A DNA stretch of 43,710 nt from a bacterium (GTDB taxonomy: Bacteria > Patescibacteriota > Minisyncoccia > Phycocordibacterales > UBA2100), in assembly GCA_030647655.1 (NCBI GenBank), contig JAUSJH010000002.1:1-43710 (forward strand), in the 5' to 3' direction. Positions within the stretch are counted from its first letter, which is position 1; every line of letters starts with the position of its first letter. The notes under the pieces were generated by a model that worked only from the letters and a program-made list of their open reading frames with translations, searched no databases and was not told where the DNA came from. Positions 9,581-39,312 of this stretch are shown in pieces. The position numbers and the translations under genes are program-made.

Positions 9581-10006
9581 TTAAGTGGCGCTTCTGAAGC
9601 TTCGCCACACGAAAAAGAACGCGAGCAATAGGAAAAGGGCCGCGACGACTAGGCCGACGTAATCGAAAACGCCGGAAAATGCAACCGCAGCGTTCACTAC
9701 TTCCGTCTCGCACATCCACATCGTCGGAATGCTTGCGACTTGCTCGCGGAACGAGATGACGCCGATCTGGAACAGAAAATCCGCAAGATAGTTGTACGAG
9801 AGGATTGCGAGAGCTAATGAGGCGAGCGCAAAGGCACCCCCGCGAATATATCGTCGGAGCCACATCACATTCGTGAGAGCCGAGAGTATTTTTGCTTTGA
9901 TTTTTCCAAACATAAAGCCCGTCACCAGGAAGGCCTTGCGGCCCCTATAGGAGTTTCCTCCTACAACATGAGACATGCCCTGAATGACGGGTTTTCTATG
10001 TCTCAT
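9581..10006 (-). CDS. Hypothetical two-helix membrane protein
   Basis: A 141-residue frame with membrane segments at about residues 55-78 (GGAFALASLALAILSYNYLADFLF) and 115-134 (YVGLVVAALFLLLAFFFVW). The predicted loop between them carries one cysteine. The first ~31 residues are basic and unlike a normal N-terminus, so M32 (9911-9913, MFGKIKAKIL) may be the real start. No family recognised. A promoter-like pair lies upstream at 10105-10131. Confidence 0.5.
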   Translation of the reverse strand: MRHRKPVIQGMSHVVGGNSYRGRKAFLVTGFMFGKIKAKILSALTNVMWLRRYIRGGAFALASLALAILSYNYLADFLFQIGVISFREQVASIPTMWMCETEVVNAAVAFSGVFDYVGLVVAALFLLLAFFFVWRSFRSAT

Positions 10007-10104
10007 GATTTGAAACCGTGTCAGCAGCCGAAGCCACTGATTTAGGTTCTAGCGTCTATTTCAACGCCTATTCAATTTTGATGTCCCGTTGCCGGAACCT
10101 GCGT

Positions 10105-18011: not shown

Positions 18012-18096
18012 GGAGAGGTGGCTGAGTGGTCGAAAGCACCGGTTTCGAAAACCGGCATGCCGCAAGGTATCGAGGGTTCGAATCCCTCCCTCTCCG
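18012..18096 (+). tRNA. tRNA-Ser (CGA)
   Basis: An 85-nt class II tRNA: acceptor GGAGAGG/CCTCTCC with discriminator G, anticodon arm CCGGT-TTCGAAA-ACCGG (anticodon CGA), a long variable arm (ATGCCGCAAGGTAT), and T arm GAGGG-TTCGAAT-CCCTC. CCA is not encoded. Its 3' end sequence is repeated three more times downstream. Confidence 0.95.
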
Positions 18097-18296
18097 AATC
18101 GACAATCTGAATGCATGCCCAGCATGCATTTTAAGATTGGCGACATGAGTGCAAAGAGGGATTCGAACCGCGGGCCGCAGGCTCCCGATTTTCAAGCCAG
18201 AATAGGGCTTAGAAAATCGCAGTCCTTTAGGGTCTCGATGAGAGACCGAAGGTTTCGAGTTGCAACAGCAACGAGAGGCGGATCCCTCCCTCTCCG
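18097..18296 (+). repeat. tRNA-Ser-tail repeat unit 1 (200 bp)
   Basis: Starts directly after the tRNA and ends in ATCCCTCCCTCTCCG, a copy of the tRNA-Ser 3' end. It is about 95% identical without gaps to 21518-21717 (by eye, about 10-11 differences in 200). It holds an inverted copy of the T arm (GAGGGATTCGAACC, about 18158-18172), a hairpin CGATTTTC ... GAAAATCG and a GGTCTC-GATG-GAGACC hairpin. Open frames across it (RGPQAPDFQ-type peptides) are not considered genes. Confidence 0.85.
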
Positions 18297-18676: not shown

Positions 18677-21376
18677 GTGATTACCTTATGGCACAAAGAA
18701 GGGCTACCAGCGGTCTTTGAGGCACTGCACGCTCATGAGAACGGGCTAAGTGCCAACGAGGCCATTCGGCGGCTCAAAGAAGACGGGCCTAACGCGCTGC
18801 CCGAAACGAAGCCTGACGGGCTACGGCTCATTTTCCTGCGCCAGTTTCAAAGTCCGCTTATATACATCCTACTTGCCGCAAGCGGGATCGTATTCCTTAT
18901 GGGCGAGGTCATCGACGGTTCGATAATTCTTGCCGTACTTTTGTTCAACGCTATCGTCGGTACTGTACAAGAAGGCAAGGCGCAGAACACGCTCCGGGCG
19001 CTTAAAAATTTCGTAGAGACGAGCGCGACTGTTCTGCGCGATGGCAAAGAACTTGTCATTCCCGACCGCGAGGTGGTACGGGGCGACATCCTCGTACTCC
19101 AAGAAGGAGAAAAAGTACCGGCCGATGCCCGCATTATTTCCCTCAGCGGTCTCAAAATAGATGAGGCATCCCTCACTGGAGAATCAGAGCCGGTAAGCAA
19201 GATAGTAGAACCGATTGATGCTGAGGTGGTTTCCGCCACTGAACAGCGCAACATGTTATTTAAGGGCACGAATATCGTCGCGGGTAACGGCAGGGCCGTG
19301 GTGGTGGCGACTGGTGCGAATACAATCATCGGCAAAATCGCCAAAGAAATATCTGCTATCGACTCTGAGATACCGCTCAAAGCGAACATCCGCCACCTCT
19401 CCCGCGCCATCATTGCCGTGGTAGCCGCTATCAGCACAATTCTTTTTATACTCGGTCTACTCAAAGGCCATGATCTGGTAACCATCTTTACTACTGTCGT
19501 GTCGCTATCTGTTTCCATCATCCCCGAAGGACTCCCTATTGTTATTACACTGGTGCTCGCTACCGGCGTGTGGCGCATGTCCAAGCGCAATGCGCTGGTC
19601 AAAAAACTACAGGCAGTCGAGGCCTTAGGCCAGGCGCAGATTATCGCGGTGGACAAGACAGGCACGATAACCAAAAACGAATTGGTTATACGGGAGGTAT
19701 GGACTGAGGGAAAGGTTTTCAAAATCAGCGGCGTTGGCTACGAGCCGAAAGGGTCAGTCGAATTCAATGGCTCGGTAGTTGACGCCGCTAATCATCCGGA
19801 GCTTCTTTTGGCTGGCAAAATGGCGGCATTCTGCGCTAATGCCCGAGTATCGTACTCCGAAGCCGAGAGCCGTTGGCGCGTTACGGGCGACCCGACTGAA
19901 GCGGCGATTGGAATATTCGGAGAGAAAATCGGTTTCAAGAAAGACGACCTGGTGCGCGAATCTCCCTTCGTCGCGGAAATTCCTTTCGATTACAAGCTAA
20001 AATATCACGCGACATCATATAACGTAGACGGCAAGAACCTTTTGGTGGTTGAGGGTGCACCGGAAGTTGTACTCGCGCTCTGCGCTCGCATGCATCGCGA
20101 TGGGGAAACTCATCCTTTAAGGAAGAAGGATATGGAAGAGCTCGAAGCCGCGCTTGCGGAAATGTCCGAGCGTGGCCTGCGCGTCGTGGCCGGGGCAATG
20201 CGTGAAAATATTTCATCGAATCTCGCGCCGGAGTCAGTCGAAGGCCTCACGTTCGTGAGTTTCTTTGGAATGCAGGATATCTTGCGGTCGGAAGTCGCCG
20301 GTGCGATGGGGCGCGCGACAGCCGCTGGTATTAAAGTTGTCATGATTACCGGCGATCATAAGCTCACCGCGCAAGCCATTGCTAAGGAGGCGGGCATTTG
20401 GAAGGAGGGCGACAAAGTACTCTCCGGCGCAGAAGTTGATGAAATGTCCGATGCTGAACTTGCGGCCCGGCTTCCGGATATCTCGGTCTTCGCGCGAGTG
20501 ACGCCAGAGCATAAGTTGCGAATCATCCAAGCATACAAGAGGCGCAGAGAGATTGTCGCCATGACCGGCGATGGAGTAAACGACGCGCCCCCACTGGTGG
20601 CAGCTGACCTTGGCGTCGCTATGGGCAAAATAGGCACGGAGGTGGCAAAAGAAGCGGCCGACATCGTACTCCTTGACGACAATTTCGGCAGCATCATCTC
20701 TGCAATTGAGGAAGGCCGGAGCATCTACAAAACCATCAAGAAAGTCATTCTGTATCTCTTTTCAACCAGTCTCGGCGAGGTGTTAGTAATTACCGCCGCG
20801 CTCTTGCTTGGGTATCCGCTGCCGGTTCTTGCGGCACAAATCATCTGGCTTAACTTTGTCACCGATGGATTCCTAGACGTGGCGCTTGCGATGGAGCCGA
20901 AGGAAGAGGGTCTGCTGTCCGGAAAGTTCGAGCGGCCGAATAAATACATAGTTGACAGTCTTATGGCGCGACGCATGATACTTATGGCACTCCCCATGAT
21001 GCTCGGCACGCTCTTCCTGTTCCAGGGATACTTTGAAAACGACATTGCAAAGGCATGGACTATCTCCCTCACCACGCTCGCCGTGTTCCAATGGTTCAAC
21101 GCATGGAACTGCCGGTCGGAGCGCAAGTCGATATTCCAAATGGACTTCTTATCAAATAAATGGCTGCTCGGGGCGACTACGGTTGTAATAATTCTTCAGA
21201 TGCTCGCGGTGTACAATCCGCTCCTTCAGTCGATTCTCCGCACCGTACCACTTACGATCTCTGAGTGGATGATGATAATACCTGTCGCCGCGTCAATAGT
21301 GGTAGTGGAAGAGGTTCGCAAGTTTTTCTATCGCAAAAAAATGGACCGCAAGGCTGTCCGGGTTGCAAGAGCGTAG
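18677..21376 (+). CDS. P-type cation-transporting ATPase, P2 (calcium-type) family
   Basis: An 899-residue ion pump beginning with GTG, preceded by an N-terminal cation-ATPase domain (GLSANEAIRRLKEDGPNALPE). Motifs: TGES (from T167, actuator), PEGLP in M4 (ion site, typical of Ca2+ and related P2 pumps), DKTGTITKNE (phosphorylated D326), KYHATS-type nucleotide region, and TGDGVNDAPP (from T630). Four membrane segments precede the phosphorylation domain in two pairs, and about six follow it, including the ion-site segment near IIWLNFVTDGFLD. Ca2+ is the likely ion, but Mn2+ or Na+/K+ cannot be excluded. It sits between repeats carrying the tRNA-Ser 3' end, so it appears to be cargo of an inserted cassette. 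Confidence 0.92.
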   Translation: MITLWHKEGLPAVFEALHAHENGLSANEAIRRLKEDGPNALPETKPDGLRLIFLRQFQSPLIYILLAASGIVFLMGEVIDGSIILAVLLFNAIVGTVQEGKAQNTLRALKNFVETSATVLRDGKELVIPDREVVRGDILVLQEGEKVPADARIISLSGLKIDEASLTGESEPVSKIVEPIDAEVVSATEQRNMLFKGTNIVAGNGRAVVVATGANTIIGKIAKEISAIDSEIPLKANIRHLSRAIIAVVAAISTILFILGLLKGHDLVTIFTTVVSLSVSIIPEGLPIVITLVLATGVWRMSKRNALVKKLQAVEALGQAQIIAVDKTGTITKNELVIREVWTEGKVFKISGVGYEPKGSVEFNGSVVDAANHPELLLAGKMAAFCANARVSYSEAESRWRVTGDPTEAAIGIFGEKIGFKKDDLVRESPFVAEIPFDYKLKYHATSYNVDGKNLLVVEGAPEVVLALCARMHRDGETHPLRKKDMEELEAALAEMSERGLRVVAGAMRENISSNLAPESVEGLTFVSFFGMQDILRSEVAGAMGRATAAGIKVVMITGDHKLTAQAIAKEAGIWKEGDKVLSGAEVDEMSDAELAARLPDISVFARVTPEHKLRIIQAYKRRREIVAMTGDGVNDAPPLVAADLGVAMGKIGTEVAKEAADIVLLDDNFGSIISAIEEGRSIYKTIKKVILYLFSTSLGEVLVITAALLLGYPLPVLAAQIIWLNFVTDGFLDVALAMEPKEEGLLSGKFERPNKYIVDSLMARRMILMALPMMLGTLFLFQGYFENDIAKAWTISLTTLAVFQWFNAWNCRSERKSIFQMDFLSNKWLLGATTVVIILQMLAVYNPLLQSILRTVPLTISEWMMIIPVAASIVVVEEVRKFFYRKKMDRKAVRVARA

Positions 21377-21392
21377 ACCTCATAACTAGAAA

Positions 21393-21517
21393 ATTTGACG
21401 GCGCGAGGATTCGAACCGCGGAGCGATGTCGAGCGAGTACGCAAGACCGCGAGCTGGTGACTAGCCCGAACCGAGCGACGGCGAGGTGAGAGGCGAAGGC
21501 GAATCCCTCCCTCTCCG
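21393..21517 (+). repeat. tRNA-Ser-tail unit 2 (divergent)
   Basis: This unit has the same ends as units 1 and 3: an inverted T-arm-like GAGGATTCGAACCGCGG (from about 21406) and a final GCGAATCCCTCCCTCTCCG. The ~85 bp between them are unrelated to the other units. It closes the ATPase cassette. The start coordinate is approximate. Confidence 0.6.
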
Positions 21518-21717
21518 AATCGACAATCTGAATACGTGCGGAGCATGCATTTTAAGATTGGCGACATGAGCGCGAGGTGGGATTCGAACCGCGGGCCGCA
21601 GGCTCCCGATTTTCAAGCCAGAATAGGGCTTAGAAAATCGCAGTCCTTTAGGGTCTCGATGAGAGACCGAAGGTTTCGAGTTGCAGCAGCAACGAGAGGC
21701 GAATCCCTCCCTCTCCG
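21518..21717 (+). repeat. tRNA-Ser-tail repeat unit 3 (200 bp)
   Basis: A near-identical copy of unit 1 (18097-18296), same length, ending in GAATCCCTCCCTCTCCG. The two copies bracket 3.2 kb that carries the membrane protein, the ATPase and unit 2. A hairpin GCCACGCT-GG-AGCGTGGC follows at 21723-21740. Confidence 0.85.
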
Positions 21718-37898: not shown

Positions 37899-38504
37899 TT
37901 ATTTATCTGGATATCTTGATACGGAAGGAAACACACCTATCTTATCGAGCGGATACAGACGCAGGAAGACGCGGCCGACGATATCTTTGCGCGGCAAGGT
38001 CCCCCAGATGCGCGAATCGGATGAGACGCGGCGATTATCGCCGAGGACGAAATATTCGTCCGCCTCGAGCGTGACCTCCATCGCATTTGTGCCGGTGAGA
38101 TTGGCCGGATCGAGGTACGGCTCGTCGAGCGTGATACCTTTTAGGTTTTGCTCATTGATGATTGTGATTTTTTGCCCGGAAAGTACAACGGTATCGCCGG
38201 GAAGTCCGATGACACGCTTGATGAGCGCCCGACCGGACTCCCCGGGAAGGTCGAAAATGATGATATCGCCGCGTTCGGGCTCTTTGAAGTCGTATGAAAG
38301 CCTATCCACGATCAGGTATTGCCAATCATGGAAGTTGGGTTCCATCGAGGCTCCCGAAACGACGTACGGAGCGGCGATGAAAAAGCGAATAAAGAGTGCG
38401 AGACCGAGGGCGACGACTGTGTAGCCGAGCAAACTTCGTTGATTACTTTGATTTCTCTTGGGAGTTTCCAGTGATGGATGATTTTGCACCACAGGATCAG
38501 GCAT
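37899..38504 (-). CDS. lepB: Signal peptidase I
   Basis: A 201-residue membrane protease that cuts signal peptides. One N-terminal membrane helix (LLGYTVVALGLALFIRFFI), catalytic Ser in SGASMEPNF, Lys in LIKRVIGLPGD, and the GDNRRVSSDSRIWG box. The ATG at 38502-38504 was chosen because TAGAAT lies 7 nt upstream; the longer frame to 38750 runs through the palindromic element. It heads a minus-strand operon with the HisRS-like and HAD genes. Confidence 0.93.
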   Translation of the reverse strand: MPDPVVQNHPSLETPKRNQSNQRSLLGYTVVALGLALFIRFFIAAPYVVSGASMEPNFHDWQYLIVDRLSYDFKEPERGDIIIFDLPGESGRALIKRVIGLPGDTVVLSGQKITIINEQNLKGITLDEPYLDPANLTGTNAMEVTLEADEYFVLGDNRRVSSDSRIWGTLPRKDIVGRVFLRLYPLDKIGVFPSVSRYPDK

Positions 38505-38541: not shown

Positions 38542-38568
38542 GTGGTTGGAGTGTTGCATGTCTCTTCG

Positions 38569-38664
38569 GCGCGATATGGTTTCTGGAGTACGAGATTTTT
38601 CAGCAGAAAAATCTCTCGGCTCTCACTCCGTCGAGCTCGAGAGCCTCCAGAAACCATATCGCGC
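38569..38664. repeat. Three-way-junction palindromic element between lepB and pth
   Basis: Outer arms of 20 perfect bp (38569-38588 and 38645-38664) enclose two further stems: GAGATTTTTC-AGCA-GAAAAATCTC (38592-38615) and GGCTCTC ... GAGAGCC (38618-38645). Together they can fold as a cloverleaf-like structure on either strand. It lies between two divergent promoters and has no T-run. Confidence 0.9.
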
Positions 38665-38704
38665 TTCATTCGCACGGTGTGGGTGGGGAAATTAGTAAGA
38701 AATC

Positions 38705-38721: not shown

Positions 38722-39312
38722 ATGGCATGGATTATCGTCGGTTTGGGCAATCCCGGGCCTGAATATCAAGGCACGCGGCACAATTGCGGCCGCATGGCAC
38801 TCGAGATGTTCACAAAAGCGATGGATTTTGGCGATTGGAAAGAAGATAAAAAGGCTAAAGCGCATGTCACAAGCGGCATGGTAGGGAAAACGGCGGTTGT
38901 ATGTATTGCACCCGATACATTTATGAACAAATCCGGCGTAGCAGTCGGAAAGTTTGTGAAGACGCAGAAGGCGGCAGAGCGCATGGTCGTCATCTATGAC
39001 GACTTGGACCTTCCGCTCGGCTCTCTCAAGCTTTCATTCAATAGAGGGAGTGGCGGGCACAGGGGAGTCGAGTCCATCATGAAGGCGGTGAAGACCAAAA
39101 AGTTCACGCGTGTGCGCGTCGGCGTCTCTCCTGTAGCTGGCGCGGGCAAACTCAAGAAGCCATCAGGCGAGAAGGAGGTCGTTGATTTCATTCTCGCGAA
39201 ATTCAAACCGGCCGAACTCGACGAAATGAAAAAAGTCTTCAAGAAAGTCTCACAGGCGCTCGAATCAATCGTCGCCGACGGTCCCGAGCGCGCGATGAAC
39301 AAGTTCAATTGA
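38722..39312 (+). CDS. pth: Peptidyl-tRNA hydrolase
   Basis: A 196-residue enzyme that frees tRNA from dropped-off peptidyl-tRNA. It has IIVGLGNPGPEYQGTRHNCG (the catalytic His in TRHN), PDTFMNKSG, IYDDLDLPLG and SGGHRGVESI, all family signatures. ATG 38722 was chosen because it starts the conserved N-terminus and has a -10 box at leaderless distance. Confidence 0.95.
   Translation: MAWIIVGLGNPGPEYQGTRHNCGRMALEMFTKAMDFGDWKEDKKAKAHVTSGMVGKTAVVCIAPDTFMNKSGVAVGKFVKTQKAAERMVVIYDDLDLPLGSLKLSFNRGSGGHRGVESIMKAVKTKKFTRVRVGVSPVAGAGKLKKPSGEKEVVDFILAKFKPAELDEMKKVFKKVSQALESIVADGPERAMNKFN

Follow-up and report, generated by a model that had tools for sequence, protein, structure and literature searches.

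The palindrome in the gap between lepB and pth was one old copy of a large and apparently undescribed family of mobile palindromes of ~120 bp. It probably belongs to a class of non-autonomous mobile palindromes of Paceibacteria-type bacteria, here called T-elements, which fold as single strands. A covariance model (R1) built on the 66-nt core, in which one stem bears two hairpins, matched relatives in 127 of the 195 genomes of the order. The family is widespread, reaching some two thirds of the genomes sampled from this order of streamlined bacteria, whose mobile DNA has been little described, and it provides a handle for finding the enzyme that moves it.

Structure of the palindrome

In the window (the whole stretch of 43,710 nt that was analysed), perfect inverted repeats of 20 bp at 38569-38588 and 38645-38664 form the outer stem of a fold that also contains a 10-bp stem (38592-38601/38606-38615) and a 7-bp-based stem (38618-38645). 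The sequence-only reading had described 20-bp perfect arms around two further stems, and this was borne out by the inverted-repeat check and by the fold. The minimum free energy was -61.4 kcal/mol vs. -28.5 ± 3.4 for shuffled sequences (z = -9.8), and none of 200 shuffles was as low. The same reading had placed the palindrome between divergent promoters. It does lie between the gene starts of the divergent pair lepB and pth; the outward-facing promoters were a reading by eye, and a consensus promoter scan found none. No T-run follows the hairpin, as had been noted before. The site thus does not fit an intrinsic terminator; across the family, T-runs numbered 19 vs. 18 in shuffled sequences on the plus strand and 31 vs. 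20 on the minus strand. The features of the locus are as follows.

37899-38504, minus strand: lepB, signal peptidase I (Peptidase_S26), by domain match
38546-38553, no strand: possible decayed target duplication, left, TTGGAGTG
38554-38677, minus strand: whole element, ~124 bp, with inferred ends; from the junctions in G005 and G006, the unit lengths in G042 (121 bp) and of copy L054 (123 bp), and the strand fold energies
38569-38588, plus strand: left outer arm, 20 nt, fully complementary to the right arm; from the fold and the covariation of arms across 148 copies
38584-38649, plus strand: conserved core, 66 nt; match to R1, 90.3 bits
38592-38615, plus strand: stem-loop 1, GAGATTTTTC-AGCA-GAAAAATCTC; from the fold and the core model
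38618-38645, plus strand: stem-loop 2, with a CGTC-type loop; from the fold and the core model
38645-38664, plus strand: right outer arm; from the fold and the inverted repeat
38678-38685, no strand: possible decayed target duplication, right, TGTGGGTG (weak)
38722-39312, plus strand: pth, peptidyl-tRNA hydrolase (Pept_tRNA_hydro), by domain match

Comparison with relatives suggested that the unit is probably longer than 96 bp and extends over about 38554-38677 (124 bp). Its largest frame was 41 codons from stop to stop. The possible target duplication around it was graded weak because five of the eight bases match between TTGGAGTG and TGTGGGTG. The minus strand, on which stem 2 comes ahead of stem 1, was the better folder of the unit (-65.4 vs. 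-62.0 with RNA parameters and -39.6 vs. -37.4 with DNA parameters).

Distribution of the family

Copies in the same genome and in its relatives, which the earlier reading had proposed to look for, were found in both. No second exact DNA copy existed in the 0.9-Mb genome of the window; the core model detected two full copies, that of the window and one at C1:4147-4212, and one weak match. BLAST in relatives returned a common centre with unrelated flanks. Copy bursts were observed in G042, G014, G026, G185, and G073, some of them of more than 20 copies; copy numbers per genome are to be read as at least the values given, since 26 candidates were scored per genome. The detailed family set comprised 148 copies from 57 genomes. 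Among named records, the stem 1 motif occurred in Kaiserbacteria, Nomurabacteria, and other Paceibacterota, which suggests what sort of host carries it, and it had no match in viral contigs. Searches of the open-access literature found no such family described for Patescibacteria. The idea of a one-off sequence therefore failed: copies were many, and G005 and G006 carried the palindrome at this site too.

Conserved core and variable arms

Across the 148 copies of 57 genomes, the core was conserved, but the outer arms were variable and still paired. The median arm pairing score was 15, compared with 1 (maximum 11) for arms cross-paired between copies, and 95% of the copies exceeded the 95th percentile of these controls. 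AT, TA, GC, and CG pairs were all common at most arm positions. The covariance model and the compensatory changes suggested as checks were thus both obtained, R1 being accompanied by covarying arms in the family and by compensation among the orthologs of the locus. Some copies had identical cores, namely L095, L096, and L097 in G014 (0/64 differences) and L101, L102, and L103 in G185 (0/67), and these differed at 5-10 of 20 positions per arm (4 in one arm comparison). This reflects either strict selection on the core for recognition, with pairing as the sole requirement on the arms, or homogenisation of the core among copies.

Identical cores with different arms would also be expected if the core alone were mobile and inserted into the loops of existing palindromes (REPs or terminators), the arms being host DNA. 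Stop codons of neighbouring genes lay 20-35 nt from the core on either side, inside the arm or often just beyond it (many copies, L053-L186), and REP dimers within longer palindromes have been reported in other bacteria (PMC3733652). However, the copies in G042 have arms in common and are bordered by 8-bp repeats beyond those arms, the G042 assembly contained no palindrome that has these arms but lacks the core, and T-runs were at or slightly above the shuffled level. We therefore give this explanation little credence. Long perfect palindromes with arms of 22-31 bp and GC-rich or other centres were present in G042 (C2:29133-29229, C19:15545-15648, and C4:79422-79505) and in the lepB-pth gap of G033 (L029). 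These are possibly sister families of the T-element.

Target duplications and mobility

The genome of G042, fetched nearly whole, contained 11 full copies of ~121 bp (120-122), each between 8-bp direct repeats. Ten of these repeats were exact in the automatic test, and that of L084 was recognised by eye with one mismatch. The insertions often had TGTG before them or CACA after them. Copy L054, whose core is close to that of the window, formed a unit of 123 bp and also had an 8-bp repeat (GTCATATC). Since both the G042 units and this near-window copy lie between 8-bp direct repeats, the family was considered mobile and MITE-like. In 19 of 147 copies, compared with 0.8 in controls, the flanks contained an exact 8-bp direct repeat at the appropriate spacing; ten of the 19 were in G042, and another was L054. 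Clean duplications were mostly limited to G042 and G014 and most copies had none, which counts against the T-element explanation. So do the half-copies of G042, about 16 in number (12 right and 4 left), which were cut inside the core.

Half-elements of G042 (e.g., C10:3499-3560, C11:10331-10391, and C21:26658-26710) adjoined a target sequence resembling TTATCCACA. This DnaA-box-like sequence was mildly enriched beside the G042 insertions (18 vs. about 5) and not unusual in the window. It was therefore dropped as a signal of its own and attributed to the preference for TGTG targets.

In the G042 assembly, neither a longer element sharing these ends nor an autonomous partner with these ends and duplications was found. 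The transposase domains PF12762 (IS1595-type) and PF01609 (DDE_Tnp_1) were absent from G042 and G014. These negative results also count against the T-element explanation. One option put forward earlier was a mobile palindromic element of REP or MITE type; mobility was upheld by the many copies, the bursts, and the 8-bp duplications, and so was the likeness to MITEs, but the REP/RAYT part did not hold.

In the mechanism that we propose, a trans-acting enzyme would recognise the element in its folded single-stranded form, reading the core and requiring of the arms no more than that they form a helix. This enzyme would insert the element through a staggered cut of 8 bp, and in G042 would often do so next to TGTG. 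The lepB-pth copy would have been inserted long ago and would have retained its structure since. The constant 8-bp length of the duplication suggests a cut-and-paste enzyme acting on duplex DNA; this is awkward to combine with single-strand handling and counts against the scheme. It is rather doubtful that an element class exists which is recognised through the folded shape of one DNA strand, with arms that drift while paired, and which yet makes a fixed 8-bp target duplication through a trans-acting Paceibacteria enzyme. If true, it would be a transposition route combining single-strand hairpin recognition with staggered-cut integration.

Strand preference

Isolated mismatches in the arms were unevenly distributed. 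On the core-plus strand, 77 were A.C and 30 were G.T (p = 6e-6; 27 vs. 10 genomes), and a bootstrap over genomes gave 0.64-0.79 for this bias. The A.C mismatches of the plus strand are G.T wobbles on the minus strand. Mismatches containing G, the stable kind, numbered 122 on the minus strand vs. 42 on the plus strand. With DNA parameters, the minus strand had the stabler fold in 138 of the 148 copies and in 54 of the 57 genomes; with RNA parameters it did so in 131 copies, and the two parameter sets together gave 52-54 genomes. Because both the tolerated mismatches and the fold stability favour this strand, one folded single strand seems to be under selection. This agreed, though indirectly, with the single-strand recombination substrate suggested earlier. 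The conserved core, the covarying arms, and the one preferred strand make up a sequence signature of DNA handled as a folded single strand, which can be tested in vitro.

In another explanation, the family is mobile as described, but its arms stay paired without selection on a folded strand, as a passive result of gene conversion or of palindrome-templated (quasi-palindrome) repair. Conversion could give identical cores beside diverged arms, and the compensated change of three neighbouring positions (TTT to CGG) between the window copy and G005 would suit templated repair. However, a strand bias is expected of a folded single strand, and neither a pure duplex palindrome nor templated repair gives a reason for the strand-specific mismatches and stability. 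We regard passive pairing as unlikely.

An RNA read from the minus strand could yield an identical strand bias, which counts against the T-element explanation. The covariation and the minus-strand wobbles would both suit a structured RNA, either a regulatory element or an sRNA. However, Rfam contained no match, whether at the gathering score or with E values allowed up to 5, so that the structured RNA proposed earlier has no known Rfam identity. Copies occupied gaps of all three kinds (tandem, divergent, and convergent), their orientation relative to genes was not significantly biased, and the non-significant trend ran against the minus-sense (40 vs. 25); these context counts are approximate, as they came from a crude ORF finder. 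Moreover, the bursts and target duplications show DNA mobility, and the lepB-pth copy sits between two gene starts. A structured RNA is thus very unlikely. As the folded form of the T-element, ssDNA (lagging-strand or excised) is favoured over RNA, given that the elements lack a significant orientation bias relative to genes.

The lepB-pth locus in relatives

The comparison of this locus covered the lepB-pth gaps of 30 relatives, that of G029 being read separately from L137. The window copy (G000) and those of G005 and G006 shared the same junctions (TTGCATGT..CTTCGGC..). Other family members were present in the gap of G012, G028, G029, and G030, and the gap of G033 contained a variant whose first hairpin is GC-rich. 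Many other relatives (G001, G003, G008, G013, G014, G016, G019, G022, G027, and G035; L013-L039) had a second class of palindrome with degenerate heptamer arms of the AGTTAATAGTT... / ...AACTATTAACT type. The palindromes recurring at this position may reflect a hotspot or a use, and a host role at lepB-pth is possible.

Among the three orthologs, five pairs were changed on both sides, which was reached by none of 500 shuffles. The pth protein of G000 was only 64-65% identical to those of G005 and G006. The shared site, the compensatory changes, and this low identity indicated that the window copy has long been in place and has kept its structure. The perfect pairing had been taken earlier as a sign of recent insertion or strong selection; recent insertion did not apply to the window copy, as G005 and G006 share it at this position and show compensatory changes in it. 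Its structure was kept either by selection or by palindrome-templated repair. In the pth tree, G000 fell outside the group of G005 and G006, and therefore loss, replacement, repeated insertion, or transfer occurred.

Comparison with known elements

The footprint of the T-element is most like that of a MITE, and its single-strand signature is like that of REP or attC. It shares with MITEs a short length, the lack of an ORF of its own, inverted ends, 8-bp target duplications, bursts, and an intergenic bias. Fixed-length target duplications (in the window copy, a doubtful decayed trace only), terminal inverted repeats, and no coding capacity were all observed. In contrast to MITEs, no parental or related autonomous IS with T-element ends was found in the G042 assembly, the three-way junction is conserved, the arms drift with compensation, and the fold is strand-biased.

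The AAV-type inverted terminal repeat is likewise T-shaped, with an outer stem bearing two small hairpins. Unlike it, the T-element has no viral or replicon context, and its stem 1 motif is the one without viral matches.

T-elements resemble integron attC sites in their shape-based single-strand hairpin logic, preferred strand, extrahelical bases, and position just past stop codons. However, their centre is conserved and their outer part varies, opposite to attC, and they have no cassette orientation. The box pair RYYYAAC ... GTTRRRY occurred in 0/147 copies on either strand, and attC identity thus did not hold.

A REP/REPIN-type element moved by a cellular RAYT (Y1 HUH transposase) was also considered. 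T-elements are likewise short, palindromic, extragenic, and near stop codons, and their strand-specific folding fits the strand-specific single-strand recognition of the known RAYT (TnpA-REP) systems (PMC8266576). Y1_Tnp genes were detected in 70 of 96 genomes, with four in the genome of the window, and copies and Y1 genes were weakly correlated (Spearman 0.24, p = 0.02). However, the T-element is T-shaped and about 121 bp long, recent copies have 8-bp target duplications, and seven genomes with at least four copies have no Y1 gene. The GTAG tag was found 5′ of the hairpin in 0/148 copies, the commonest tetranucleotides being GCAC, GTAC, and GTCG. REP/RAYT identity therefore failed, and movement by a RAYT is improbable.

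For CGTC-tagged REPs, some of which lie inside longer palindromes, a dedicated transposase is not known, and CGTC is an unpaired tag beside a stem of 8-9 bp (PMC3733652). In the T-element, a CGTC-like motif instead forms the loop of stem 2, and the two hairpins of the core differ from each other. That study, with its REP dimers in longer palindromes and its CGTC REPs lacking a transposase, is the closest published lead.

Other features of the window

A 218-nt direct repeat (95% identical) was present at 18079-18296 and 21500-21717. Its first copy begins within the 3′ end of a tRNA-Ser gene (18012-18096), and one large ORF of 899 aa (18677-21376), by eye a P-type cation ATPase, lies between the two copies. 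The arrangement resembles tRNA-end integration or duplication. A LOOT RNA (RF03000) was found at 9930-10048 on the minus strand (75 bits).
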